The notes beneath the pieces were generated by a model. It made no database searches. It saw only the letters and a list, made by a program, of their open reading frames with translations, and was not told the DNA's origin. DNA of 64,000 nt from an uncultured Clostridia bacterium. Its GTDB lineage: Bacteria; Bacillota; Clostridia; TANB77; CAG-508. The stretch covers positions 1 to 64,000 of the forward strand of contig CALXHG010000008.1 of NCBI GenBank assembly GCA_944388045.1, read 5' to 3'. This document shows, piece after piece, positions 24,374 to 47,993 of this stretch. Every line of letters starts with the position of its first letter. Position 1 is the stretch's first letter. Made by a program: the position numbers and the translations under genes.

Positions 24374-27300
24374 TTACATACCTCTTAAAAAATTTAATGT
24401 TGCTGTTATATATTTTTCTGGTAATTTCATACTTAATGCTTCTGCCATACTATTTGCTAATGGTAATTCAACTAAAGCAACTTTTGCACCAATATTTAAT
24501 CTAGCCCAAGATATAATATATTGTGAACCATATCTTCCATATCCAGTTGTTCTGCAAGAAGGATATTGTTCTTTATAATATTTGCATACACTTTCATCTC
24601 CTATTAATTGGTTTTCCCATCCATGAAAATCAATTAATACATTTTGACCAACATTTGTTTTATGTGCTAATATAAAATCTCTTAAATATTCTGCTTCATA
24701 TGCTTGGAATCCTTCTGTTCCATTATAATTTCTATCTGAAGTAAATCTCTCATATTCTGTTCCTGTTTGCCAACATCTATTTATATCTATTCCTTTTCCA
24801 ACTTTACTATATAAAGTCGTTCTTCCTGGTCCATTTTTAGATTGTCCTAATCTTCTACCATCTGGATTTACTTCTGGAAAAATATAAATAGTCCATTTTT
24901 CTGCTATTGAATAATCTTGGTCTTTGATTAATCTATCATAAAAATCATTTGCTGTTTTTACTAAAATTTCTCCATCTCTATCCCAAGAATCTTCATATCC
25001 ATGAACACAAAATGTTGCAAATAATACATTTGGACCATCTCCATATTTATAGCATATTAATTCAGAACCTCCACTTACACCATGTAAATAAGCTCCACTA
25101 TATCCATATTTAATTGTTTCTCTTTCTATTTTTCCTAAATAAACTATATTTTGGCTTTGTTCATGAATTACTTCATTTGTTTCATTTGAATATACTTGAA
25201 TTGTAATATTGTGTGTTCCTTTACCATAAGAATTTAAATCTACTGTTGTTTTAAATTCTGGTTTTGGATTTTCTTTGATTGTTCCATATCCTTTTATTGC
25301 ACTTATTACATCTGGTCTTTCATTATATTGTATATTTCCTATTTCTTTTCCATCTATTTTTATTATAACTTTTTTATTAGCTAATTCAGACATTACCCAG
25401 CCTCTAATTGTTATTACACTTTCTCTGGTTGATGATTTTGCTGGGTCATCAATATAAGAACTTGTTTGATATTTTTTAACAGAAAAAGTTTTTGTTATAC
25501 TTACTTGTGTTTCTTCATTATTAACTACTGAAACTATTTTTAAAGTATGTTTTCCATCTTTTATTTTTGTAGTATCTATAGTTGCTTCAAATCCTGGTGT
25601 TGGATTTTCTTTAATTGTGCCATATCCTTTTATTGCATTTATTACATCTGGTCTTGCTTGTCTAGTAATATTAACATCATTTATTTTTTGATTATCTATA
25701 TATATATTTATTTTTGCATTTTTTTCAGTTGACATTACCCAACCTTTTATAAATAATGATTTTGAAACTTCATCATTATTTATAGGAAAATCTACACATA
25801 GTTTTGTTGTATATTTATCTAATATAAATTTTCGTTCTTGTGTTTTTATTATTTTTCCTTCTCCTGATAAAACATCAATTTTTAATGTATGTGTACCATT
25901 AGAAAGTTTCGATAAATCTATATCAAATTTAAAACCTGGAGTTGGATTTTCTTTTTTTGTTCCTGTATCTTTTATAGCTTCTAATACATCATTTCTTTGT
26001 AGTCTAACTAAATTATTAAAATTTTGTTGTTTTCCATCTATATATGCTTTTATACTTGTATTTTTATCATTTGACATTACCCAACCAACTACATTTAATG
26101 TTTTTCCAACAATATCAATTTTTGTTGAAGGTTTATCAATACAAATTTTTGCTCTGCTTTCTTCTAAAGTAAAATTTGTAGAATGTTCTGCAATTACATT
26201 TCCTTCTCTAGAAAATGCTTTTAATGTTAATTTATGTTTTCCTTTGCTTATTTTACTTGAGTCTATATTACATATTATCCCTGGCTGTTTATTTATTTCT
26301 GTATTATATTCCTTATAAAAATCTAATACATCATTCCTTTTTATTCTTATAAAATTTATATCTTTTTGTTCAACATCATCTAAATATAATTTATATGTAG
26401 ATTTTTCATCATTTGATATAAACCATCCTTCAAAGACAAAGTCTCCTGCTAATGAACTTTTTGGATAGTCTATCCAGGTTTTTGCATGATATTTTTCTAT
26501 AACAATATTTTTTACATATTCTTTTAATATCTTTCCTTCTTTTGAAAGTACTTGGATTTTTAAAATATGATTTCCATCTTTAATATTCGCATTATTCATT
26601 ACACATTCGAAACCAGGTTGTGGATTTTCTCTTTTGCTTCCACTATCTTGTATTTTATCTAATACATCTTGTCTATTTAATCTTTTTATTTGATTTTGTG
26701 TTTGTTCTTTATCATCTATAAATATTTTTATTTGTGTATTAGGTATATTTGCCATTACCCAACCTTTTAATACATAATTACTTCCAATAACATTATTTTG
26801 TTCTAATGGAGAATCTACACATATTTTTGCACTTTCATCTTGGTATGTAAAATATGTTTGATAATTTGCAATAGTTTTATTTTCTCTTGATATTACTCTT
26901 AATGATAATTTATGCTTTCCTTTTGTTAATTTTGAACTATCTAATGAAAAAATAATACCTGGTTGCTTATTTTGTTCTTCTGTTCCATAATCTTTTATCT
27001 GAGTTAAAACATCATTTCTAGATTTTCTTGTTGTTGAAAGAATATCTGCTTCTTTATCATCTATATATAGTTTTACTTTTGATTGTGTATCATTTGTCAT
27101 TACCCATCCTTCAACATTAATACTTCCTCCAAGAAAAGTATTTTGGGGATAATCTATCCATGTTTTTGCTTTGTATTTTTGAATTGTAATATTATCTGTA
27201 TATTGTCCAATTGTTTTTCCGTTTTCTGATAAAACAACTATTTTTAATGGATATGTTCCATCAACATAATTTGAACAATTAATTATATACTCAAATCCAG

Positions 27301-27961
27301 GGTTTGGATTTTCTACATTACTTCCATAACCTTTTATTTGATCTAATACATCTTTTCTTGAAACTCTTTTTATTTGCTCTTGAGGTTGTTCTTGATTATT
27401 TATATAAATCTTTATTTTTGAATTTGCAGTATTAGCCATCACCCATCCTCTTAATGTATAATTTCCACTAAAAGCATTATTAGTACCTAATGGTGTGTCT
27501 ACCCATATTAATGAATTTTCATTATCATAAATAAGTTCTTTATTAAATTCTGCAATTTCCTTATTTTCTCTTGAAAATACTTTTATTGAAACTGTATGTT
27601 TTCCTTTTGATAAGTTTGTACAATTTAAAGTTAATCTAATTCCTGGTTGTTTATTTTGTTCAATTGTTCCATAGCCTGTTATTTGCTCTAATACATCATA
27701 TCTTTCTTTTCTTATTAATGATAGTATTTCTGCTTCTTTACCATCTATATATGCTTTTATTTTTGAATTACTATCATTTGTCATTACCCATCCGTCTATA
27801 ACAATATTTCCTCCAACATTACTTCCTGTTGGATTATCAATATATGTTTTTGCAACATAATTTGATTCATTATTTTGTGCATTTGCAAAAACTATACCAA
27901 AAAATGATATTAATACTATTGCAGTAAAAATAAAAATTAACTTTTTATTAATTATTTTCAT
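24374..27961 (-). CDS. Secreted M14 zinc carboxypeptidase with eight N-terminal repeat domains
   Basis: The 1195-residue protein has a signal peptide (about 1-28, ending FANAQ) and eight repeats of about 110-116 residues, each with GWVM near its start and DVL..IKGYGT..ENP.PGF in the middle. A C-terminal M14-type domain (about 960-1195) follows, with HGYED (zinc His and Glu), INRCW, the third ligand in IDFHGW, and the catalytic Glu in LVELP. Repeats alternate between two subtypes ('NKQPGI' and 'NPQPGF'). The repeats look like beta-rich wall-binding or spacer modules. The enzyme probably trims peptidoglycan stem peptides or other surface peptides. It lies in the glycan cluster with AAAGGA 7 nt before the ATG. 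Confidence 0.9.
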   Translation of the reverse strand: MKIINKKLIFIFTAIVLISFFGIVFANAQNNESNYVAKTYIDNPTGSNVGGNIVIDGWVMTNDSNSKIKAYIDGKEAEILSLIRKERYDVLEQITGYGTIEQNKQPGIRLTLNCTNLSKGKHTVSIKVFSRENKEIAEFNKELIYDNENSLIWVDTPLGTNNAFSGNYTLRGWVMANTANSKIKIYINNQEQPQEQIKRVSRKDVLDQIKGYGSNVENPNPGFEYIINCSNYVDGTYPLKIVVLSENGKTIGQYTDNITIQKYKAKTWIDYPQNTFLGGSINVEGWVMTNDTQSKVKLYIDDKEADILSTTRKSRNDVLTQIKDYGTEEQNKQPGIIFSLDSSKLTKGKHKLSLRVISRENKTIANYQTYFTYQDESAKICVDSPLEQNNVIGSNYVLKGWVMANIPNTQIKIFIDDKEQTQNQIKRLNRQDVLDKIQDSGSKRENPQPGFECVMNNANIKDGNHILKIQVLSKEGKILKEYVKNIVIEKYHAKTWIDYPKSSLAGDFVFEGWFISNDEKSTYKLYLDDVEQKDINFIRIKRNDVLDFYKEYNTEINKQPGIICNIDSSKISKGKHKLTLKAFSREGNVIAEHSTNFTLEESRAKICIDKPSTKIDIVGKTLNVVGWVMSNDKNTSIKAYIDGKQQNFNNLVRLQRNDVLEAIKDTGTKKENPTPGFKFDIDLSKLSNGTHTLKIDVLSGEGKIIKTQERKFILDKYTTKLCVDFPINNDEVSKSLFIKGWVMSTEKNAKINIYIDNQKINDVNITRQARPDVINAIKGYGTIKENPTPGFEATIDTTKIKDGKHTLKIVSVVNNEETQVSITKTFSVKKYQTSSYIDDPAKSSTRESVITIRGWVMSELANKKVIIKIDGKEIGNIQYNERPDVISAIKGYGTIKENPKPEFKTTVDLNSYGKGTHNITIQVYSNETNEVIHEQSQNIVYLGKIERETIKYGYSGAYLHGVSGGSELICYKYGDGPNVLFATFCVHGYEDSWDRDGEILVKTANDFYDRLIKDQDYSIAEKWTIYIFPEVNPDGRRLGQSKNGPGRTTLYSKVGKGIDINRCWQTGTEYERFTSDRNYNGTEGFQAYEAEYLRDFILAHKTNVGQNVLIDFHGWENQLIGDESVCKYYKEQYPSCRTTGYGRYGSQYIISWARLNIGAKVALVELPLANSMAEALSMKLPEKYITATLNFLRGM

Positions 27962-28122
27962 TTACTTTTCCTTTCTTTCTTATGTATTTTAACTTATTAC
28001 AAGTTTAAATTAATTAACACAAAAAAATATTTTTATTTGTGTTTTCTATTATTAGATACATTTTATTTATAAAAAAGTTTCAATTTTTTTATTTTTATTT
28101 TAATTTTTTATTTAAAACTGAA

Positions 28123-29106
28123 TTATGTAATAATAAATTTAAAATAAGCAATTATTGGAAAATGGAACAAAATAATTTCTCTTATCTTCTTTTTGCCTAT
28201 ATTTCTTCCATTTAATATTTTAAAATATTCTTGTATTTTTGTTAAATTAATTATTTTTGTTTTATATATTTTTTCATAATAATTTTCTGCATTTTTACAA
28301 AAATCCTGATTTTCCTTTTTTGTAGAATATTTTAAACACATCTTTATTCCGCTTTCATAGGCTCTTTGAATAGCATCTTTTCTATAATTTAAAAAAGCTT
28401 CAAAACTTTTTCCATTTTTCTCTTTCCACCTATTTAAATTTTGTGATAGACTTCTTCCTCCAAAAACATTCGAATTATGTAATCTATAATCAAACAATGG
28501 CTCTTTAATATATGTAATTCCTTTTCCTTCATTTGCTATAAAACCTGCTAGCCAGTCATGTGCAATTACCTCTTTTTTAAAGGGAATCATTTTTTGTTTA
28601 ACTTCTTTTGTTATAATTTGTGAACATCCAATTCCTACACATCTTGAAATTGCTAATTTCCCATTCTTATTTATTAATGGTACATTTTTATATTTGAAAT
28701 AATTTTCTTTTAAAACAATTCCATTTTCATTTATTTGTCTACAATTGCAATAAACCATGTCTACATTTTCTTTTTTTAATTTTTTTAGACTTTTTTCTAT
28801 TTTATCTAAATACCATATATCATCATGGTCTGAAAAAGCTATATAATTTGCAGTGGATTGATTTAATAAGAATTCAAAGTTTTTATTATATCCTATGTTT
28901 TGAGGTTGTAAAAATAGTTTTATTCTTTTATCTTTTTTTGCAAAATTTTTTAAAATTTCTTGTACTTCTGGTTTTGTTGAACAATCATCACTTATATATA
29001 TTTGTAAGTTTTTATATGTTTGTTTTAATATACTTTGTATTTGCTTTTCTAAGTATTTTTTTTCAGTATTATATGTTGCAATTAATACATCAACTAAATC
29101 TTCCAT
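28123..29106 (-). CDS. GT2 glycosyltransferase, rhamnosyltransferase-like
   Basis: The 327-residue enzyme has VLIATYNTEKKYLEKQI at the N terminus, ISDDCST near 38 and FSDHDDIWY near 93 (DxD-type motif). AHDWLAGF near 182 and YRLHNSNVFGG near 207 follow, as in the protein at 18750-19718, of which it is a diverged paralogue. A hydrophobic C-terminal stretch ends the protein. A GAAAGGTAAGAG site precedes the ATG. It is the first gene of the glycan region in the direction of transcription. Confidence 0.87.
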   Translation of the reverse strand: MEDLVDVLIATYNTEKKYLEKQIQSILKQTYKNLQIYISDDCSTKPEVQEILKNFAKKDKRIKLFLQPQNIGYNKNFEFLLNQSTANYIAFSDHDDIWYLDKIEKSLKKLKKENVDMVYCNCRQINENGIVLKENYFKYKNVPLINKNGKLAISRCVGIGCSQIITKEVKQKMIPFKKEVIAHDWLAGFIANEGKGITYIKEPLFDYRLHNSNVFGGRSLSQNLNRWKEKNGKSFEAFLNYRKDAIQRAYESGIKMCLKYSTKKENQDFCKNAENYYEKIYKTKIINLTKIQEYFKILNGRNIGKKKIREIILFHFPIIAYFKFIIT

Positions 29107-29456
29107 CTCTTACCTTTCATTTTTATATTTTATAAGTGTTTAACTATTATTTTTTATTTAAATATATAAAATATTGTTTACAAAAAATCTGGAAATTTAA
29201 TATAAAAAATAAATAACTTTTTTAAATAAAATGTTTAAATATAAAAAATTTCAAAATAATTTTATATAAAATGTTGTTTATTACTTTATATATAAAGTTC
29301 CAGATTTTTTAATATATATTAAAGATTTTAGAACAATATTATTTTATCATATATATTTTTTTAAGTCAATAATTTGACAATAATCTTTATAAGTGTTATT
29401 ATTATTTTAGATACCATTTATAAAATGGTAAATTATATGAAAGAGGTTTATCTATT
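29107..29456. other. 350-bp AT-rich intergenic region with 13-bp inverted repeat
   Basis: This region separates the divergently oriented GT2 gene (minus) and GC-rich small gene (plus). AAAAAATCTGGAA (29182-29194) recurs inverted as TTCCAGATTTTTT (29298-29310), 103 bp apart. The promoter for the plus-strand gene lies to the right of the second arm. No ORF is supported. Confidence 0.6.
29374..29430 (+). promoter_or_regulatory. Sigma-A type promoter with palindrome at the expected start of the transcript
   Basis: TTGACA (29374-29379) and TATTAT (29397-29402) are 17 bp apart, a near-consensus housekeeping promoter. The perfect palindrome TACCATTT-ATA-AAATGGTA (29412-29430) lies just after the predicted start site. 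It could be an operator or an RNA 5' hairpin. The small gene starts at 29457. Confidence 0.7.
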
Positions 29457-29723
29457 ATGGCTTATGGAAACGAATTATTTTCGGACATGTTTTCTCGTGA
29501 AATTGAATGGGAGCCCATCGAACGGTTAAGCAAAGAAACGGAAAGGACCACAAAGAAATTTCCTTCGTGTGATGTAAGAGTTGTTAAGCAGCCTGCGAAG
29601 GTTAGGACTAAAGTGGCAGGAATTTCTTATTACGAACAGCTTTGCCAGGAGCAGGGTTTGCTCGGCTTTGCGACCGCTCCTTGGAATTCCATCAATATAT
29701 TCCCGGAAAGCAAAAAAAGATAA
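29457..29723 (+). CDS. GC-rich orphan small protein, probably acquired
   Basis: The 88-residue hydrophilic product is not recognised. It has no signal peptide or membrane helix, two cysteines, and a basic middle (KQPAKVRTKVAG). By hand count 114 of 267 bases are G or C (about 43%), far above its neighbours, with codons such as GCG, CGG, CCC, CTC and GAC that are rare in this window. It has its own promoter, an AGAGG ribosome-binding site 9-10 nt upstream and two hairpins downstream. It is the only plus-strand gene in the left 55 kb. The compact self-contained unit looks like a transferred gene cassette; a role in phage or host interaction is only speculation. Confidence 0.75.
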   Translation: MAYGNELFSDMFSREIEWEPIERLSKETERTTKKFPSCDVRVVKQPAKVRTKVAGISYYEQLCQEQGLLGFATAPWNSINIFPESKKR

Positions 29724-29736
29724 CCTTAAATTTTCT

Positions 29737-29800
29737 CTCACTTAAATTTTAGGTGAGATACAAGAGCCCCCCAGTTTCTAACGAAGCTGGGGGGCTAATT
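29737..29800 (+). terminator. Two tandem hairpins after the GC-rich gene
   Basis: CTCACTTAAA and TTTTAGGTGAG (29737-29757) form a first hairpin. AGCCCCCCAG (29765-29774) and CTGGGGGGCT (29787-29796) form a 10-bp GC-rich stem with a 12-nt loop. The second stem is far stronger than others in this window but lacks a clean U run, so it may protect or end the transcript in some other way. Confidence 0.7.
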
Positions 29801-29845
29801 ACATTAAAATCTTTTAAAATAAAATTTTTATATAATCAACATTTA

Positions 29846-30556
29846 TTATAAAATAAAATTTAATTTATCTTCAAAATATAATTTTGTTATCATTTTTAAT
29901 TCTTCTAAAGATTCATCTCTTAAATTAAATGAATAAAGTTTCTTTGGTGGAGCCAAAACTATATATTTTATTGCAGAAACTGTACCTTCTGATACTCCAA
30001 TAGCACCTTTATCAACTTTTCCACAATTTTCACACTTGAATCCATTATCTTTTATACTAAAGTATTTTATATTATCTTTTTTTTTGCAATTAACACATTC
30101 ATTAATTCTTGGCGAGTAACCTAAAAGACATAATATTTTTAATTTAAAAATTGAATCAACAAGTTCCATATTTTTATCTGTTTCTGATAATGTATATAAT
30201 GTATTTAAATATAATTGCATAATTCTATAACAATTTTCATTTTCTTCAGTTACATTTTTTACTATTTTTGTAATTTCAATAGCTTTGTTTAATTTATCTA
30301 AATCTGTCCTTAAATTATAAAACACTTCAATTGTTTCACAAGAATTTATATTATATGTATTAACCCCTTTATACATTAAGTATTCTCCAAAGCAAAATAG
30401 TTGTGTACCAGCAAGTAAGGCACTTTTAGGCCTTCTTGCTCCTTTTGCTACACATGATATTTTTCCTAATCCCGGAGTTAACATTGTTAACATCTTATCA
30501 TAATCTCCTAAGTTACTTTCAGAAATTATGATTCCACTCATTTTTACTGTCCCCAT
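29846..30556 (-). CDS. recO: DNA repair protein RecO
   Basis: RecO promotes RecA loading and strand annealing in RecF-pathway repair. The roughly 236-residue protein has an N-terminal OB-fold (SGIIISESNLGDYDKMLTMLTP) and a four-cysteine zinc cluster near 150-180 (CVNCKKK...CENCG), as in Gram-positive RecO. The start at 30556 is supported by AAAGGTGG 6 nt upstream and overlaps yqzL by 38 nt, implying coupled translation. The order era-yqzL-recO matches that of other Firmicutes. Confidence 0.94.
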   Translation of the reverse strand: MGTVKMSGIIISESNLGDYDKMLTMLTPGLGKISCVAKGARRPKSALLAGTQLFCFGEYLMYKGVNTYNINSCETIEVFYNLRTDLDKLNKAIEITKIVKNVTEENENCYRIMQLYLNTLYTLSETDKNMELVDSIFKLKILCLLGYSPRINECVNCKKKDNIKYFSIKDNGFKCENCGKVDKGAIGVSEGTVSAIKYIVLAPPKKLYSFNLRDESLEELKMITKLYFEDKLNFIL

Positions 30557-30707
30557 ATTGTTCCACCTTTGATACTTGCTCAAAATCGTTATATATACTT
30601 TTTTGTTTTTTTAACTCTTCTTCTACAGTTTTAAATTGTTTAAATTCCAAAAAGGTATTCACATTTCCGGTATTTTTAAAAGTTTCCCATGCAATTTTTT
30701 TAATCAT
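30519..30707 (-). CDS. yqzL: YqzL family small protein
   Basis: The 62-residue protein contains AWETFKNTGNVNTFLEFKQF near its N terminus, the signature of YqzL, a short protein of unknown function conserved between era and recO in Bacillus and Clostridia. This copy has a longer acidic/basic C-terminal tail than the usual roughly 47 residues. Its 3' end overlaps recO by 38 nt. Confidence 0.8.
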   Translation of the reverse strand: MIKKIAWETFKNTGNVNTFLEFKQFKTVEEELKKQKSIYNDFEQVSKVEQYGDSKNEWNHNF

Positions 30708-30772
30708 AAGCTCACATCCTTTAATATTATCTTTTGCATTTTATTATTTTTTATTCATTTTGGTGAATCTTT

Positions 30773-31675
30773 TTATGTTAATTTAAACTTATCAACAATT
30801 GAATTATCATCTTGCCAATCTTTTTTTACTTTTACCCATGTTTTTAAATTTATTTTTACTCCAAAATTTTTTTCCATATCAATTCTTGCAGATTGACCTA
30901 TTTTCTTTAACATTTCTCCATTTTTTCCAATAATAATTCCTTTATGTGAATCTCTTAAACAATATATAGTAGCTTCTATATCATACATTTCGTGACCTTT
31001 TTGAGTCTTTTTTAATTTCATTTTTTCAACTTCTACATAAATTCCATGTGGTACTTCGTCTTGCAAATATATTAAAGCTTTTTCTCTAATTGTTTCTTCT
31101 GCAAGTTGTCTTAATGTTTGATCTGTATATTCTTCTAAATCATAGTATGCTGGTCCTTTTTCTAATTGTTTTTCTATTTCGTCTAAAATAATTTCTTTAT
31201 ATTTACCTTTTATAGAAGAAATAGGTATTACAGATTCAAAAGGATATTCTTTTTGATATATATCAATTAAATGCAATAAATTTTCTTTTTTAACTAAATC
31301 TATTTTATTAATAATAAGAATTGTTTTTTTATTTGCTTCTTTAATTTTTTCTAAAATTTTCATATCACCTTTGCCTATTTCTTGGCTCGTTGCTTCTATT
31401 ACAAATAAAATTACATCAATATCATTTAATACTCCAAATGATGTTTCTATCATAACTTCATTTAATTTTGTTTTTGGCTTATGTATTCCAGGAGTATCTA
31501 TAAATATTATTTGTGAATTTTTTCTATTTACAATTCCTTTTATAGCTGTTCTTGTTGTTTGAACTTTGTTTACTGTTGCCGCTACTTTTTCTCCTACAAG
31601 AAGATTTAATAATGTAGATTTTCCAACATTCGTCCTTCCTATAATTGCTACAAATCCTGATTTAAATTCTTGCAT
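30773..31675 (-). CDS. era: GTPase Era
   Basis: Era is an essential GTPase that binds the 3' end of 16S rRNA during 30S maturation. The 300-residue protein shows G1 GRTNVGKST near 12, G2 TTRTA, G3 DTPG near 60, G4 NKID near 122 and G5 SSIKG, followed by a C-terminal KH domain with GIIIGKNGEMLKKIG near 235. The G1 loop has Thr where most Era proteins have Pro. The ATG ending at 31675 has GAGGA 10 nt upstream; an upstream TTG is the alternative. Confidence 0.97.
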   Translation of the reverse strand: MQEFKSGFVAIIGRTNVGKSTLLNLLVGEKVAATVNKVQTTRTAIKGIVNRKNSQIIFIDTPGIHKPKTKLNEVMIETSFGVLNDIDVILFVIEATSQEIGKGDMKILEKIKEANKKTILIINKIDLVKKENLLHLIDIYQKEYPFESVIPISSIKGKYKEIILDEIEKQLEKGPAYYDLEEYTDQTLRQLAEETIREKALIYLQDEVPHGIYVEVEKMKLKKTQKGHEMYDIEATIYCLRDSHKGIIIGKNGEMLKKIGQSARIDMEKNFGVKINLKTWVKVKKDWQDDNSIVDKFKLT

Positions 31676-31726
31676 AATCAATTTTTCCTCTTTTTCTTTA
31701 TTATTTACTAATTAAATTTTTTTACA

Positions 31727-31758
31727 AGATATTTATTTTATTATAAAATAAATATCTG
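31727..31758. terminator. AT-rich palindrome between era and the 772-residue gene
   Basis: AGATATTTATTTTAT and ATAAAATAAATATCT are exact inverted arms directly downstream of the stop at 31763. There is no clear U run on the minus strand, so terminator function is uncertain; it could also be an mRNA end-protecting hairpin. Confidence 0.45.
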
Positions 31759-31762
31759 TGTT

Positions 31763-34081
31763 TTACTTCTCTTCAATTGGATTAATTGTATATTCTAATA
31801 AATTAATAGTTTTTACAGCTAGCTTTGAAGATAATTCATCATTGCCTTCTAATAATCCAATTCTAATTGTTTTTTTAGAATCTAATGTAATATCAGTATC
31901 TTTTAATTTTACTATAAGTCTTGTATCTTTGTCCATTCCACGAGGTAAAGTTTTATTTAAATTATCAAAATAAATACAATTTGAAAATGCAATAATATTT
32001 ACTCCGCTTTTTACATTCATTTTATATAAATTAACTTTATTTCCTTTTGAATTTTCTATTGCATTTGATATTTCTTCTTTTACATCTAAATTAAAAATAT
32101 TTATTTTATTTGCATCAATGTTTTCTTCATCTTCTGTCCACATATAAGTTAATAGCTCTTGATTCGTTGTTATTTTTTCTAATGCTTCATTTATTCTCCA
32201 AATTGTTTGACTCAAATTTACTTTATAATCAACTACCTTATATTGTTTTGAAACACCTAAAATTAAAAATTTATTTCTCTGATTTTCTCTATGTGTTTTA
32301 TTTGCTAATTTTTTTATTTTTGTTGTATCTTCTTCAAGAACACCAAATATATTACTATCATCTTCTGCTATACTACTATCTTTTTTTTGTTCAGCTTTTA
32401 ATTCTTTTAGATATTTATCCAATTCTTTAGGTTCTAAAGAGTTTGTTTTAACTTTATTAATAACATCTAATTGATTTGTTGTTGTTAAATAAAGAGCATT
32501 TAATTCCACTTTATTTAATTTTGTTGATTGCAAATCATCTATTTCTTTTCCAAACTCTTCAAAGTTTTCTTCAAAATTCATTATCTTTGAATATGTTTTT
32601 ACATTTATAATTTCTTCTTCGCCTTCTGCTAAGCTTTGTATTTCATCTTTATTGCTATATTTCCAAAACTCAAATATACTCTTTTTATGACTATCTATTT
32701 CTTCTATATATGCAGTTGCATTTTCAATTTTCTTCTTTAAATTAACATTTTTTAGTTTTAGAGCATTTATATCCATTTTTATGTTTTTTAATTTATTTTC
32801 TTCATTTGTTATATTTTCTCCTATTTCTAATAAATCATCTAATGTGTATTGTTTTTTTATATTACTATCATTATTATTTTTTTCTTGCTCATTTTTTTCT
32901 ACTTTAATTTCATCATTGCAATTCTCTTTTTCTTCAACTTTTTTATCATTTTTTTTCTTTGATTTTTTTCCATTATATTTAAAAAAGTATTTTACTTTTC
33001 CAAAGAAACTTTTTTTACATTCTAAAAAAGTTGATATTTGCTTTTCTTTAGCTAAATATTCTATCTCCAAATTTTGTGATTCTTCTTTAAATTTCTTTAA
33101 TTTTTCAGAAAATTCTATAATCTCTTCTGATATATTTTTTTCTAATTCAATAAATTTCTCGTATTGTGAATTAATCCATTCACCAATTTCATCGTATTCT
33201 AATAATTCATCTTGATAATAAATTTCTATTTTTCCCTGTTTATCAATTTGTGTATTAAAATTATAATGTGATGGAATTTTTGATTTTAGAATAAACAAAA
33301 TTTTTACCAATTTAAAAAATTTATCTGCTTCTATTTTGTTATTAAGCTTTACTTTATATTCAGATTCAATTTTTTCAATTACTTGAGTTTGTCCTATAAT
33401 TTGAATTGAGCCTTTATCTGTTTTATCATAAACCTCATATATTGTTGGCCAATTTCCAGTTATAGACCATAAATAATTTTCTAAACTTTGTATTTCTGTT
33501 GGATTTAATATTTCTTTTGTATAATTTATATTACTTATTGGCACAAATATTTTTCCTGCTTTTTTCTTTTCTAATTGTTTTTTTAATACATAAAAAAATG
33601 CTGAATAGTCTTTATCATCTGTTGTTACTATCATAAAATATTTATTATCTATTTCTGAATAGTAAATTTGCCATAAATAATTTCCTGGATATCTTATTTT
33701 AAATGGTATTTTTTTATTTAAAATTTGTTGTTCTTCTTCTATTTTTTCTATATCTTCTATTTTAACTTCTTTTAACATCTCTAAAAATTTTTCATGTAAT
33801 TCTACTTCTTCATCAGTTTTTGGTTCTAAATAAGAAACTAATGGCTTAGTTTTTGAATATTTAGTTCTAATATCTTCTAATCTATTACATGGTGATAATA
33901 AAATCTCTAGTTCTTTTGGTGAAACATATCTATATTGCCTATATTTATTTTCTTCAATTCCTATATTAGGTTTAAAATTTATTTGTTCAACATATTTTAA
34001 TGTTTCTGGAATCTGTTCGATATTTAAACCTATATATTCTAGTTTTTTTTCTATTTCTCGTGGTATATTATTTTTTTCCAA
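31763..34081 (-). CDS. Large coiled-coil protein of unknown function
   Basis: The 772-residue soluble protein is not recognised. From the sequence: an N-terminal alpha/beta region (1-250) containing a YFMIVTTDDKDYSAFFYVLKK core; a long charged coiled-coil centre (about 300-530), including a Lys/Glu/Asn-rich low-complexity segment near 370-415; and a compact C-terminal part (about 600-772) that looks beta-rich. There is no signal peptide or membrane helix. The start is TTG ending at 34081 with AAAGGAG 9 nt upstream. It lies between era and dusB, a housekeeping setting, suggesting a lineage-specific cellular role rather than a mobile origin. Confidence 0.75.
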   Translation of the reverse strand: MEKNNIPREIEKKLEYIGLNIEQIPETLKYVEQINFKPNIGIEENKYRQYRYVSPKELEILLSPCNRLEDIRTKYSKTKPLVSYLEPKTDEEVELHEKFLEMLKEVKIEDIEKIEEEQQILNKKIPFKIRYPGNYLWQIYYSEIDNKYFMIVTTDDKDYSAFFYVLKKQLEKKKAGKIFVPISNINYTKEILNPTEIQSLENYLWSITGNWPTIYEVYDKTDKGSIQIIGQTQVIEKIESEYKVKLNNKIEADKFFKLVKILFILKSKIPSHYNFNTQIDKQGKIEIYYQDELLEYDEIGEWINSQYEKFIELEKNISEEIIEFSEKLKKFKEESQNLEIEYLAKEKQISTFLECKKSFFGKVKYFFKYNGKKSKKKNDKKVEEKENCNDEIKVEKNEQEKNNNDSNIKKQYTLDDLLEIGENITNEENKLKNIKMDINALKLKNVNLKKKIENATAYIEEIDSHKKSIFEFWKYSNKDEIQSLAEGEEEIINVKTYSKIMNFEENFEEFGKEIDDLQSTKLNKVELNALYLTTTNQLDVINKVKTNSLEPKELDKYLKELKAEQKKDSSIAEDDSNIFGVLEEDTTKIKKLANKTHRENQRNKFLILGVSKQYKVVDYKVNLSQTIWRINEALEKITTNQELLTYMWTEDEENIDANKINIFNLDVKEEISNAIENSKGNKVNLYKMNVKSGVNIIAFSNCIYFDNLNKTLPRGMDKDTRLIVKLKDTDITLDSKKTIRIGLLEGNDELSSKLAVKTINLLEYTINPIEEK

Positions 34082-34243
34082 AACTAGATGCTCCTTTCAT
34101 TTTTCTTAACTTTATATATTTTACTATTCTTTCAATAAAATATCAATATTCTATTTTTATTTTATTAATTTTATAAAACAATTAAAATTATTCTATAATA
34201 TATGTAATATTATTCCAAAATTAAAATTGCTTTATATGTAATA

Positions 34244-35218
34244 TTATCTCATAAGATAAAATTCTTTTATTTTATTAATAAAATCATAATAATTATTTAT
34301 ATGATTTATTTCATCTCTAAATTTAGATGCTCCTGGCATATCTTTAGAATAAGCAGAAATATATTTTCTTATTTCATTTATAGCAGTTTTTTCCCCTTTT
34401 TCTTTTATACTTATTTCAATATGTTCTTTAAGAATTTTATATTTATCTTGATTAGATGGTTTTTCTTTTTTTAGTCCTGTTTCTAAATAATATTTTATTT
34501 GTTCAAATATCCATGGATTTCCTATAGCTGCTCTTCCTATCATAATTCCATCAACTCCTGTATATTCAAACATTTTTTTTGCAGATTCTTCATCAATTAT
34601 ATTTCCATTGCCTATAACAGGAATTTTTACAGATTCTTTTACTTTTTTTATAATATCTAAGTCTACATTTCCAGAATAATAATCTTCTCGTGTTCTTCCA
34701 TGTACTATTATAGCAGATACTCCACATTTTTCTGCTATTTGTGCAATTTCACATGCAACAATATGATATTTATCCCAACCTTTTCTTATTTTCAAAGTTA
34801 CTGGTTTTTTTGAATTCTCTACAACTGCTTTTATGACTTTTTCTGCTTTTTCTAAGTCCATTAATAATTTGCTTCCATCTCCGTTTTTTACAACTTTTGG
34901 TGCTGGACATCCCATATTTATATCTACAATATCAGCATAAGCACTAATATATCTTGAAGCAAAGCCCATTGTTTCAGAATCACTTCCAAAAATTTGTATA
35001 CTGATAGGTCTTTTTTCTCCGTCTGTCTTCAATAACTTTTTTGTTTTTTCATCTCCAAAAAATAAAGCCTTAGAGCTAATCATTTCTGTACAAACCAATC
35101 CTGGATTAAATTTTTCTACAATAATTCTAAAAGGCAGGTCTGTAACGCCTGCCATTGGAGCTAATATTAAATTATTTTTTAATTCTACATTTCCAATTTT
35201 TAGTTTCTTTAAATACAT
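34244..35218 (-). CDS. dusB: tRNA-dihydrouridine synthase
   Basis: This FMN enzyme reduces specific uridines in the tRNA D-loop. The 324-residue protein has the TIM-barrel start LAPMAGVTDLPFR, the catalytic Cys in NMGCPAPKV near 100, the KIRKGW phosphate-binding strand near 145, VHGRTRE near 172 and the FMN phosphate loop GNGNI/IGRAAIGNPW. This is the DusB/NifR3 type. AGGAG lies 5 nt before the ATG. It starts 9 bp after the rodA stop, so the two are almost certainly co-transcribed. Confidence 0.95.
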   Translation of the reverse strand: MYLKKLKIGNVELKNNLILAPMAGVTDLPFRIIVEKFNPGLVCTEMISSKALFFGDEKTKKLLKTDGEKRPISIQIFGSDSETMGFASRYISAYADIVDINMGCPAPKVVKNGDGSKLLMDLEKAEKVIKAVVENSKKPVTLKIRKGWDKYHIVACEIAQIAEKCGVSAIIVHGRTREDYYSGNVDLDIIKKVKESVKIPVIGNGNIIDEESAKKMFEYTGVDGIMIGRAAIGNPWIFEQIKYYLETGLKKEKPSNQDKYKILKEHIEISIKEKGEKTAINEIRKYISAYSKDMPGASKFRDEINHINNYYDFINKIKEFYLMR

Positions 35219-35226
35219 TTTTACTC

Positions 35227-36342
35227 CTATTTATTAAATAGTCCATTTTTTCTTTGACTACTAATATTCAATAATATTCCTATTGCAATAAAACTTGTCA
35301 TCATAGAACTACCTCCATAACTAACAAATAGTAATGGTACACCTGTTATTGGTAATAATCCCATCGTCATTCCAATATTTTCTAATGTATGAAATAGAAA
35401 TATTCCTGCAATTCCTATTGCTACATATGCTCCAGCTTGGTCTTTAATTCCTTTTGCTACTTGTATAGCTTTTATTATAATCATTACATTTAATAATATA
35501 ACAACACATGCAACAATAAATCCCATTTCTTCACTTATAACAGCAAAAATAAAATCTGTAGTTTTAGGATATAAATATCCTAGCTGTGTTTGATTTCCTT
35601 CTAAAATTCCCATTCCGGTTATTTGACCTGCTCCTATAGCCAACTTTGATTGTAATATATTATATCCCGCTCCTGTGGGATCTGTTTCTGGATGTAAATA
35701 TGTGTCAATTCTAGTTTTTGCATGTTCTGGCAAAACAAATAAATATAGTAATGGTACTGCAACAATTACTATAGTTACTGCAAGAAAAATATATTTTTTA
35801 TCAATTCCTGCAACAAATATAATTAGTAAAAATGATACAATAAATGCTGCAGCAGTTCCATAGTCTGGTTCTAAAACAATTAGTATTATTGGAATTGTAA
35901 CAGTTAAAATAATTAATGTTAATTTATAAATTTTATTTATTTCTTTTCTTCCTTTTTGGATTTGTATCTTTGAAATTACATATGATACAAATAAAATTAC
36001 ACAAATTTTTGAAAATTCGGCTGGTTGAAGAGAGAATAAATCATCTCCTATCGAAAACCAACTTCGTGCACCACTAATTGGCTCAGTAAATAATACTGCA
36101 ATCAACATAATAATTGCAATACCATATAAAATTGGAGATATTTTTATTAAAAATTTATAATCTATAAACATTACAATTAACATTAAAAATATTCCTGTAC
36201 AAACCCAAACAACTTGCTTTTTAAATTCTTCTAATCCAGAATCATAAGAAGCAGAAAATAGAGCAACTAGTCCTATTGCACATAATATTATTGCAAATAA
36301 TGGTATTAACCATTCTATTTTTCTTAATCTTCTAATATTCAT
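35227..36342 (-). CDS. rodA: Rod-shape peptidoglycan glycosyltransferase RodA (SEDS family)
   Basis: SEDS proteins polymerise lipid II into glycan strands. The 371-residue protein has about ten transmembrane helices and the family motifs SGARSWF...LQPAEFSK (near 92-115), EPDYGTAAAF (near 160), GYNILQSKLAIGAGQ and TDFIFAVISEE (near 230-275) and VSYGGSSMM near the C terminus. The catalytic Asp is in the TDFIF motif. Features and the minCDE-like neighbours fit RodA rather than FtsW. It is followed closely by dusB and preceded by minE. Confidence 0.93.
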   Translation of the reverse strand: MNIRRLRKIEWLIPLFAIILCAIGLVALFSASYDSGLEEFKKQVVWVCTGIFLMLIVMFIDYKFLIKISPILYGIAIIMLIAVLFTEPISGARSWFSIGDDLFSLQPAEFSKICVILFVSYVISKIQIQKGRKEINKIYKLTLIILTVTIPIILIVLEPDYGTAAAFIVSFLLIIFVAGIDKKYIFLAVTIVIVAVPLLYLFVLPEHAKTRIDTYLHPETDPTGAGYNILQSKLAIGAGQITGMGILEGNQTQLGYLYPKTTDFIFAVISEEMGFIVACVVILLNVMIIIKAIQVAKGIKDQAGAYVAIGIAGIFLFHTLENIGMTMGLLPITGVPLLFVSYGGSSMMTSFIAIGILLNISSQRKNGLFNK

Positions 36343-36359
36343 CTTCTCACTCTTTATTT

Positions 36360-37085
36360 TTAATATTTTTTATGTTTATGTTTTTTAAAATTCTTATTAT
36401 GTTTTTTAAAATTTCTATTTTGTTGTTGATAATTATTATTTTGTTTATTTGAATTATTTTCTATTTTTATTTCTTCTTTTTTTTCTTCTTCTTTTAAATT
36501 TTTTTCTGTTTCTACAATATTTGTGTTTTCTTCTTTTTCTTCATTATTACAATCATCTTGTATATTATTATTTATATTTTCATAGTTGTTAAATTGTGTT
36601 TCTTTTTCATTAGATTCTTCATAATTATATTTTTCATTATCCAAATTTTCTCTATTATTATTTATACTTACCTCTTTTGACTCATAATCTTCTGTTCTTT
36701 GATTATTTATATCAATATAATTATATTCTTCATGAAAATATTCATTTTTTTCTGTTTTGTTAGATTCAAATTTTACAGTTTGTCTTGCTTCATCTTTTAT
36801 ATTTAATATTGGTATATTTGCATACAAAGCAGGAGCTCCATTTGTTCCATCCCCGTTTTCTTTATTGGTTAATCTAACATCCATTGCACTTTCATCTATA
36901 TCTATATATTTTTTTATTACTTCTATTATTTCTTGTTTCATCAAATCTAAAAAATCAGCAGATACATTTGCTCTATCTTGCATTAGCACTAAATGTAATC
37001 TTTCTTTTGCAGCATCTTTAGATTTTAATGTTTGATCTTCTTTTTTTGTAATTTTTTTTATTTTGTTCATTATGCTTTCAAACAT
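36360..37085 (-). CDS. minE: Cell division topological specificity factor MinE with long disordered tail
   Basis: MinE stimulates MinD ATPase and drives Min oscillation that places the septum. The N-terminal part (about 1-100) is a complete MinE: SKDAAKERLHLVLMQDRAN is the MinD-binding/beta region, followed by FLDLMKQEIIEVIKKY and the DVRLT...LYANIPI dimerisation strands. The remaining 140 or so residues are extra: a low-complexity Asn/Glu-rich stretch that ends in a basic His/Lys/Asn segment (KKHNKNFKKHKHKKY). Usual MinE is under about 100 residues. GGAGGAG precedes the ATG; minD is just upstream. Confidence 0.9.
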   Translation of the reverse strand: MFESIMNKIKKITKKEDQTLKSKDAAKERLHLVLMQDRANVSADFLDLMKQEIIEVIKKYIDIDESAMDVRLTNKENGDGTNGAPALYANIPILNIKDEARQTVKFESNKTEKNEYFHEEYNYIDINNQRTEDYESKEVSINNNRENLDNEKYNYEESNEKETQFNNYENINNNIQDDCNNEEKEENTNIVETEKNLKEEEKKEEIKIENNSNKQNNNYQQQNRNFKKHNKNFKKHKHKKY

Positions 37086-37107
37086 TATTTTTCTCCTCCA
37101 ATGTATT

Positions 37108-37899
37108 TTATTTTTTAAATATATTTTTTATTTTTTCTAAAAAACCTTTTTCTCTTCCTGGTATTGTTACTTCTATATTTTCTCCTAAAACTCTTTTAGC
37201 TATTTCTAAATACGCTTTTCCTGATGGAGCTTTTCTATTTTGAATAACAGGTTCTCCTTTATTTGTTTGTGTTATTATATATTCATCATCTGGTACTACT
37301 CCTATCAAATCTATAGATAATAAATCTACAATATCATCTACATCCATCATCTCACCCTTTTTTACCATATTAGGTCTTATTCTATTTATTACTAATTCTG
37401 GGTTTTTGATTTCAGAAGCTTCTAATAATCCTATAATTCTATCAGCATCTCTAATTGAAGAAATTTCAGCTGTTGTTACAACAATTGCTCTATTTGCCCC
37501 AGCTATAGCATTTTTAAAACCTTGTTCTATTCCTGCTGGGCAATCTATTAATATATAATCAAATTCTTCTTTTAATTTTCCAACTAAATCTCTCATTTGT
37601 TCTTCATTTACTGCACTCTTGTCTCTTGTTTGTGCAGCAGGTAACAAATATAATTCTTTAAATCTCTTATCTTTTATTAATGCTTGTCTTAATTTACATT
37701 TTCCTTCAACAACATCTACAATGTCATATACAATCCTGTTTTCTAGTCCCATTACAACATCTAGGTTTCTAAGCCCTATATCTGTATCTATTAATGCGAC
37801 TTTTTTTCCTTCTAGAGCCAAGCTTGAACCTAAATTTGCTGTTGTTGTTGTTTTACCTACTCCACCTTTTCCTGATGTTATTACTATAACTTCTCCCAT
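37108..37899 (-). CDS. minD: Septum site-determining ATPase MinD
   Basis: MinD is a membrane-binding ParA-type ATPase that recruits MinC or other partners and is released by MinE. The 263-residue protein starts with the deviant Walker A GKGGVGKTTTTAN, has Walker A' IDTDIGLRNLD near 40 and Walker B YILIDCPAG near 117, and ends with the amphipathic membrane-targeting helix GFLEKIKNIFKK. minE follows by 22 bp. No minC is seen between rodA and cwlD. GGAGGG lies close before the ATG. Confidence 0.96.
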   Translation of the reverse strand: MGEVIVITSGKGGVGKTTTTANLGSSLALEGKKVALIDTDIGLRNLDVVMGLENRIVYDIVDVVEGKCKLRQALIKDKRFKELYLLPAAQTRDKSAVNEEQMRDLVGKLKEEFDYILIDCPAGIEQGFKNAIAGANRAIVVTTAEISSIRDADRIIGLLEASEIKNPELVINRIRPNMVKKGEMMDVDDIVDLLSIDLIGVVPDDEYIITQTNKGEPVIQNRKAPSGKAYLEIAKRVLGENIEVTIPGREKGFLEKIKNIFKK

Positions 37900-38035
37900 A
37901 TTTTCCCTCCTTAGGATCTGTTTATCTATTTTGTCCTAATTATCTTTTTATATAATACACTCAAATTGAAAAAAAGTCAAGGGAAAATTGGTGTCTGAAA
38001 TGTTTTTTTGTTACAGTTTAGTGAGAAATTTTATG

Positions 38036-47502: not shown

Positions 47503-47750
47503 GGGGTCGGTCCCTTTTTTCGTTGGGGTCGGTCCTCTTTTTGTCTATGGTCAGTTCTAAAATCAAACCCAATATATAAATTGTTTTTTATACCTTGTGT
47601 GTCGCAACCTACAAAAAAATTTCAATATGTAGGTTGCTCCAAATCGCATTCGCTACGCTCATTTGGTCGCTTACGCGGTATTACAAAACAATTTATATAT
47701 TGGGTTTGATTTTAGAACTGACCATAGACAAAAAGAGGACCGACCCCAAC
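47503..47750. repeat. 66-bp perfect inverted repeat with paired GGGACCGACCCC units
   Basis: The arm 47522-47587 is an exact inverted copy of 47685-47750, separated by 97 bp. Each arm includes one GGGACCGACCCC-type unit, a TTTTTGTCTATGGTCAG block and ATATATAAATTG. The centre contains GCAACCTAC/GTAGGTTGC, a second hairpin, and the palindrome-like CGCATTCGCTACGCTCATTT. A further unit (GGGGTCGGTCCC at 47503-47514) lies just outside. It looks like a non-autonomous hairpin element; no transposase gene is present. Confidence 0.85.
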
Positions 47751-47983
47751 AAAAAAAGGGACCGACCCCAACAAAAAAGGGACCGACCCTAACAAAAAAG
47801 GGACCGACCCTAACAAAAAAAGGGACCGACCCTAACAAAAAAGGGACCGACCCCAACAAAAAAAGGGACCGACCCCAACAAAAAAGGGACCGACCCTAAC
47901 AAAAAAGGGACCGACCCTAACAAAAAAAGGGACCGACCCCAACAAAAAAAGGGACCGACCCTAACAAAAAAGGGACCGACCCT
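47736..47983 (+). repeat. Twelve-copy tandem array of 21/22-bp GGGACCGACCCYAAC units
   Basis: GGGACCGACCC[CT] occurs at 47758, 47779, 47800, 47822, 47843, 47865, 47886, 47907, 47929, 47951 and 47972, plus a degenerate first unit at 47736. Units are joined by AAC and an A run of 6-7, with a period of 21 or 22. The A-run length is the main variable. Apparent ORFs through it (repeats of DRPQQKR or GTDPNKK) are an effect of the repeat. The 666-bp gap between fruK and carD holds this array, the inverted repeat and a terminator. Confidence 0.9.
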
Positions 47984-47993
47984 AATAATCATA

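Follow-up and report, generated by a model that had tools for sequence, protein, structure and literature searches.

A GC-rich orphan gene with its own promoter and terminal hairpins, resident at the recO locus of AT-rich Clostridia

In a window of 64,000 nucleotides from an uncultured Clostridia bacterium (contig CALXHG010000008.1, positions 1 to 64,000), a short GC-rich gene is located between recO and a glycosyltransferase gene, and in each of the three species nearest to it a diverged, GC-rich orthologue occupies that site. GC content that departs from the surroundings is commonly taken to mean that a gene was transferred recently, and an earlier sequence-only reading of this DNA had interpreted the gene in that way. 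Here I propose that it is a resident, lineage-restricted, moron-like accessory gene whose GC content is maintained, most likely by selection, a proposal that I regard as about equally likely to hold or to fail.

Composition and surroundings of the gene

The gene (29457-29723, + strand) encodes a protein of 88 amino acids, is present in a single copy in its own genome and has a GC content of 42.7% (0.427), against 24.8% (0.248) for the whole window and 9.6% just upstream of the gene (29125-29374). Its GC3 is 44% (0.438), while that of the adjoining genes is 0.12 (glycosyltransferase), 0.14 (recO) and 0.09 (era), and that of the host genome has a mean of 0.115, a standard deviation of 0.048 and a 99th percentile of 0.37 (788 open reading frames of at least 150 amino acids, 1.25 Mb). 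The neighbours, which code for a family-2 glycosyltransferase, an M14 peptidase, RecO and Era, flank it on the minus strand. The sequence-only reading had thus correctly placed the gene on the opposite strand and rightly estimated its GC content at about 43% in mid-20s surroundings. The peptidase gene (24374-27961, - strand) encodes a protein of 1195 amino acids with repeated Ig-like modules followed by an M14 zinc carboxypeptidase domain.

Signals at both ends

The near-consensus promoter TTGACA-17-TATTAT described earlier is indeed found at 29374-29402 (+ strand) with 11 of 12 matches, and it is kept in the three sister species. It stands back to back with the divergent promoter of the glycosyltransferase gene, TTGACT-17-TAAAAT (29341-29369, - strand; 10 of 12 matches, with a TG before the -10 box), with 4 bp between the two -35 boxes, and the resulting GTCAA...TTGACA arrangement is retained at the orthologous loci. 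The predicted transcript starts with a perfect palindrome, TACCATTT-ATA-AAATGGTA (29412-29430, + strand), which has the 8-bp arms reported before and could form a stem-loop (fold z -3.2). Orthologues have it at the same position, in species G335 with arms of different sequence (ATGTCA/TGACAT), a change consistent with either a hairpin or a re-tuned operator. The putative ribosome-binding site AAAGAGG (29440-29446, + strand) recurs as AAAGAGG or AAGAGG at the loci of G403 and G499.

On the other side of the promoter pair, the divergent intergenic region holds an AT-rich inverted repeat (29182-29310, - strand), whose arms (29182-29199 and 29293-29310) match at 94%. The corresponding arms are 29 nt at 97% in G499 (L008:1226-1350) and 48 nt at 83% in G403, and the repeat is absent upstream of the glycosyltransferase gene in G335. 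Its sequence changes between species while the pairing is retained, and it is probably part of the leader of the glycosyltransferase gene.

Downstream of the coding sequence, two hairpins follow each other, the first at 29736-29758 (+ strand, 10 bp) and the second at 29765-29796 (+ strand, a 14-bp stem with one G-U pair and a 4-nt loop). Folded together, they reach a z of -8.6. The earlier description of two terminal hairpins, one of them with a 10-bp stem and no U-run, is accurate as to their presence and the missing U-run; the second stem is longer than that, at 14 bp. Hairpin 2 lies between the convergent ends of the gene and recO and is its sole copy in the genome. Both hairpins show compensatory changes among the orthologues, in 7 of 24 pairs overall, and the loop of hairpin 2 differs in sequence between them. 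In contrast to the stems, the GAUACAAGAG block between the hairpins is nearly invariant, and the linker within it (29759-29764, + strand) is identical at the four orthologous loci. As there is no U-run, it is uncertain whether the double hairpin acts as a terminator, and a scan for consensus terminators gave no terminator-like match there.

The UACAAGAG between the hairpins is also found 3' of another GC-rich gene, L055:2271-3209, where the same hairpin-UACAAGAG-hairpin layout (L055:2185-2254, - strand) is retained in G499. I considered ACAAGAG as a general 3' tag of GC-rich genes and rejected it, as only 5 of its 204 sites in the genome are followed by a strong fold, and the hairpin-linker-hairpin layout is truly present at just one further site, that in L055. 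In sum, the anomalies listed in the sequence-only reading, a self-contained cassette of atypical composition with its own promoter, 5' stem-loop and 3' hairpins, are all present; what needs correction is that this is not the sole such anomaly in the genome.

Protein

As anticipated earlier, the product is not recognised: comparison of the 88-residue protein with the Pfam, PHROGs and NCBIfam profiles gave no match beyond chance, and no relatives were found in 50,697 phage and 72,556 plasmid records or in IMG/VR. The homology check suggested along with the transfer claim thus yields no phage, plasmid or viral-contig source. GTDB species genomes contain no homologue other than those in G499 and G403, the transcript has only weak sub-threshold hits in Rfam, and a literature search returned nothing on point. 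None of the libraries consulted describes the family. The predicted structure (pLDDT 57, a single helix at residues 56-65) suggests that the protein is probably mostly disordered. In a multiple alignment of the four orthologues, which measure 70-88 amino acids, the invariant residues fall at the N-terminus and in a C-terminal block, G-x-x-Y-Y-x-x-L-x-x-E-x-G-L, which continues roughly as ...FPxxK and holds the predicted helix.

Orthologues at the recO site

Among 391 genomes of the class, one clear relative was found, in G403 of the same genus, and a two-member profile run against all 211 genomes of the genus added G499 and G335. Weak matches at L003, L004, L005 and L010-L017 were discarded as probably due to chance. 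The three orthologues (L002:1495-1743, L008:1501-1761 and L009:1498-1710) all occupy the slot between recO and that glycosyltransferase gene, and their orientation is unchanged; G499, G403 and G335 are the nearest species by RecO (91%, 87% and 84% identity, respectively). Gaps in frame and substitutions in the order 2<1<3 by codon position establish it as a real coding gene, and the ribosome-binding site and start codon are conserved.

The proteins are only 37-56% identical to that of the window (54-56% for G403 and G499); in the multiple alignment the values are 54, 54 and 35%. Differences at third positions amount to 0.54-0.71 between the orthologues, which is close to saturation, whereas recO has 0.19-0.33 and the glycosyltransferase gene 0.20-0.31; codon positions 1 and 2 change fast as well. 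GC3 is nevertheless high in all four genes, at 0.44 (window), 0.42, 0.54 and 0.44. The promoter, the 5' palindrome and the 3' linker diverge gradually, in step with the flanks.

In six other species the site is empty, with 50-163 bp and nothing else between the glycosyltransferase gene and recO. The presence-absence comparison proposed in the earlier reading therefore supports an insertion: the unit was gained between recO and the glycosyltransferase gene before the four species split. A further species, G505, has a GC-rich open reading frame at this site, oriented alike, which comes with a TTGACT-17-TATAAT promoter, a leader palindrome, a terminator hairpin and a C-terminus, VTKPAGLPYYLELAGL, that resembles the family block. 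By sequence alone it is borderline (single-sequence E 0.0026, with at least 5 of 2000 shuffles scoring above it), and its probable status as a distant relative comes from position, orientation and composition. A tree built on RecO places G505 with two species whose site is empty (support 0.87), so that either a single older gain followed by a loss, or two gains, must be assumed.

Positions 28036-38009 of the window, some 10 kb around recO, are syntenic with G499 (L168) at an identity of only 83%, compared with a median of 94% for random genes, which suggests a recombined block.

A class of GC-rich solitary genes

A survey of 1.25 Mb of the 1.79-Mb genome (~70%), based on a mechanically made list from which a GC-rich tandem-repeat family was removed and which includes some doubtful entries, showed 18 testable GC-rich open reading frames that stand out, a few of which seem spurious, leaving about 15 credible ones. 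A promoter scoring 10 or more together with a strong 3' hairpin is found in 10 of the 18, against 7 of 195 ordinary open reading frames, and five have a perfect TTGACA-17-TATAAT. Units with a good promoter and a strong 3' hairpin, mostly orphans, are located at L078:457-819, L067:8005-8415, L085:13662-14123, L103:4118-4471, L055:5051-5443, L098:16293-16934, L052:117-1121 and L088:11744-12649. Among ten members tested, a single one has a Pfam match above the cut-off; it is thymidylate-kinase-like, is nearest to phage proteins (PHROG 761, E 2e-13), and has a GC3 of 0.42-0.54 in 6 of 8 species.

Codon usage is common to the class: the four orthologues fit it at +0.55 to +0.91 log units per codon, whereas no ordinary open reading frame scores above -0.07. 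Over the surveyed 70% of the genome, the GC-rich solitary units form a distinct class in codon usage and architecture. Most of the members found in G499 are still GC-rich at 93-99% DNA identity (ordinary-gene median 94%); fast-evolving exceptions are the gene of the window and two others, whose matches at L056 and L051 have 32 and 40% identity and may be paralogues. Distribution over the genus is patchy: of 118 genomes, 2 contain one of the members and 8 contain another, every copy of the latter having a promoter-like region as well as a 3' hairpin.

The genome also contains scattered GC-rich tandem arrays with a unit of about 20 nt, GGGACCGACCC(C/T)AACAAAAAA, for instance at 47720-47985 of the window, L099:6773-7018 and L103:3813-4121. 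Copies of GGGGACGGTCC, which is related to this unit, are present at the empty recO site of G053.

Folding of the transcripts

Relative to codon shuffles, the coding sequences of the orthologues fold with z values of -1.5 (window, by itself a weak signal), -2.8, -4.3 and -2.7, and that of G505 with -3.3; in a control Clostridia genome of 45% GC the mean is -1.24 (n = 33). The difference between family and control has a p of 0.003, an optimistic value, as the members are related and not independent samples. Members of the whole class fold better than ordinary AT-rich open reading frames (mean coding z -2.0 vs. -0.4), but against the control genome of matched composition the difference is not significant (p = 0.086), and I therefore dropped structured coding sequence as a class-wide trait and kept it as a lead for the orthologue family only. 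The 60 nt before the start codon have a more stable fold in the class (mean -8.5 vs. -4.5 kcal/mol), but are GC-richer there as well.

Discussion

If the third positions had been so thoroughly scrambled in a passively imported gene, a drift to the host GC3 of ~0.11 would be expected. As GC3 is still high at near-saturation, the GC content is maintained or renewed, and not a remnant of import. The most likely cause is selection, be it on the structure or stability of the mRNA or on codon use; of these, mRNA structure is the first candidate, though unproven.

Under the preferred reading of a resident accessory gene, the sigma-A-type promoter, half of a back-to-back pair common to it and the glycosyltransferase gene, would drive expression of a short, presumably monocistronic mRNA that has the stem-loop first and the double hairpin last. 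The terminal hairpins may serve in termination, in insulation from the convergent recO, or in stabilisation and protection of the message, and selection on this mRNA would uphold GC at the near-saturated third positions. The small protein could bind a partner through its conserved C-terminal block. The speed at which it changes points to an accessory role with shifting selection, and it may be a fast-evolving factor in, for example, defence or competition.

Alternatively, divergent alleles from a GC-richer pool may have recombined repeatedly into the site via its conserved flanks, with no selection on composition at all. Such replacement could account for the fast divergence of the gene compared with its flanks (54-56% protein identity vs. 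87-91% for RecO), and the low identity of the surrounding 10 kb to G499 and the patchy distribution of other class members fit it as well. I nonetheless consider it rather doubtful, as phage, plasmid, IMG/VR and GTDB sequences offer no donor beyond two sister species, and the gradual divergence of promoter, palindrome and linker is that of descent in place. An old capture of an accessory phage gene with its own promoter and terminator would explain the layout, which is that of a moron, and one other class member does resemble a phage thymidylate kinase. This is less probable still, since no phage genes are seen among the neighbours examined, no viral relative of the protein was found, and composition should by now have drifted toward that of the host. 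That the transcript is a structured functional RNA with an incidental open reading frame would agree with its overall fold (z -5.3), the covarying 3' hairpins and the coding regions that fold better than shuffles in most family members, but gaps in threes, the strongest conservation at position 2, the kept ribosome-binding site and start, and the absence of an Rfam match make it very unlikely. Recent horizontal transfer, to which atypical GC and codon usage and absence from most of the genus had pointed, is hardly credible, being refuted by the diverged GC-rich orthologues at the same site.

The sequence-only reading had itself allowed that the gene would count as resident if many AT-rich relatives had close homologues of equal GC at this locus. 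G499, G403 and G335, exactly the species nearest by RecO, have such homologues, and G505 probably has one too. That they are not many follows from the gene being confined to a small clade.

With a GC3 of ~42-54% in four species next to neighbours at ~10%, and third positions almost fully substituted, the resident gene is a clean counter-case to the rule that atypical GC means recent transfer, and it suggests that in an entire class of solitary genes composition is either selected or renewed; mRNA structure, codon supply and repeated allele import are candidate drivers. More tentatively, and with the odds against it in my judgement, the genome could keep its solitary GC-rich genes as a compartment of their own, with strongly structured, self-insulated mRNAs and a GC content actively maintained against AT mutation pressure. 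GC-rich messages might then, for example, persist or be translated while AU-rich mRNAs are degraded, with the gene of the window as a fast-evolving member.

Comparison with known systems

The taxonomically restricted orphan genes resemble this gene in being short and fast-evolving, with relatives not found outside one genus, but in several species with AT-rich genomes this one stays rich in GC, and it forms a complete unit from promoter to hairpin. Integron gene cassettes likewise carry one gene with a palindrome on its 3' side. However, they are usually promoterless, whereas this gene has its own promoter, and its hairpin is unique in the genome, with a loop not conserved as an attC core would be; by these features I reject an integron identity. 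The layout matches that of phage morons, single genes with their own promoter and 3' hairpins (here a putative terminator), a composition unlike the surroundings and an insertion between genes that are adjacent in relatives. The unit differs from them in its core chromosomal locus between recO and the glycosyltransferase gene, where no phage or prophage context is seen and about 10 kb are syntenic with the sister species, and in its age, having been kept over several species. It is best called an old, chromosomal, moron-like orphan unit that retains a foreign-looking composition.
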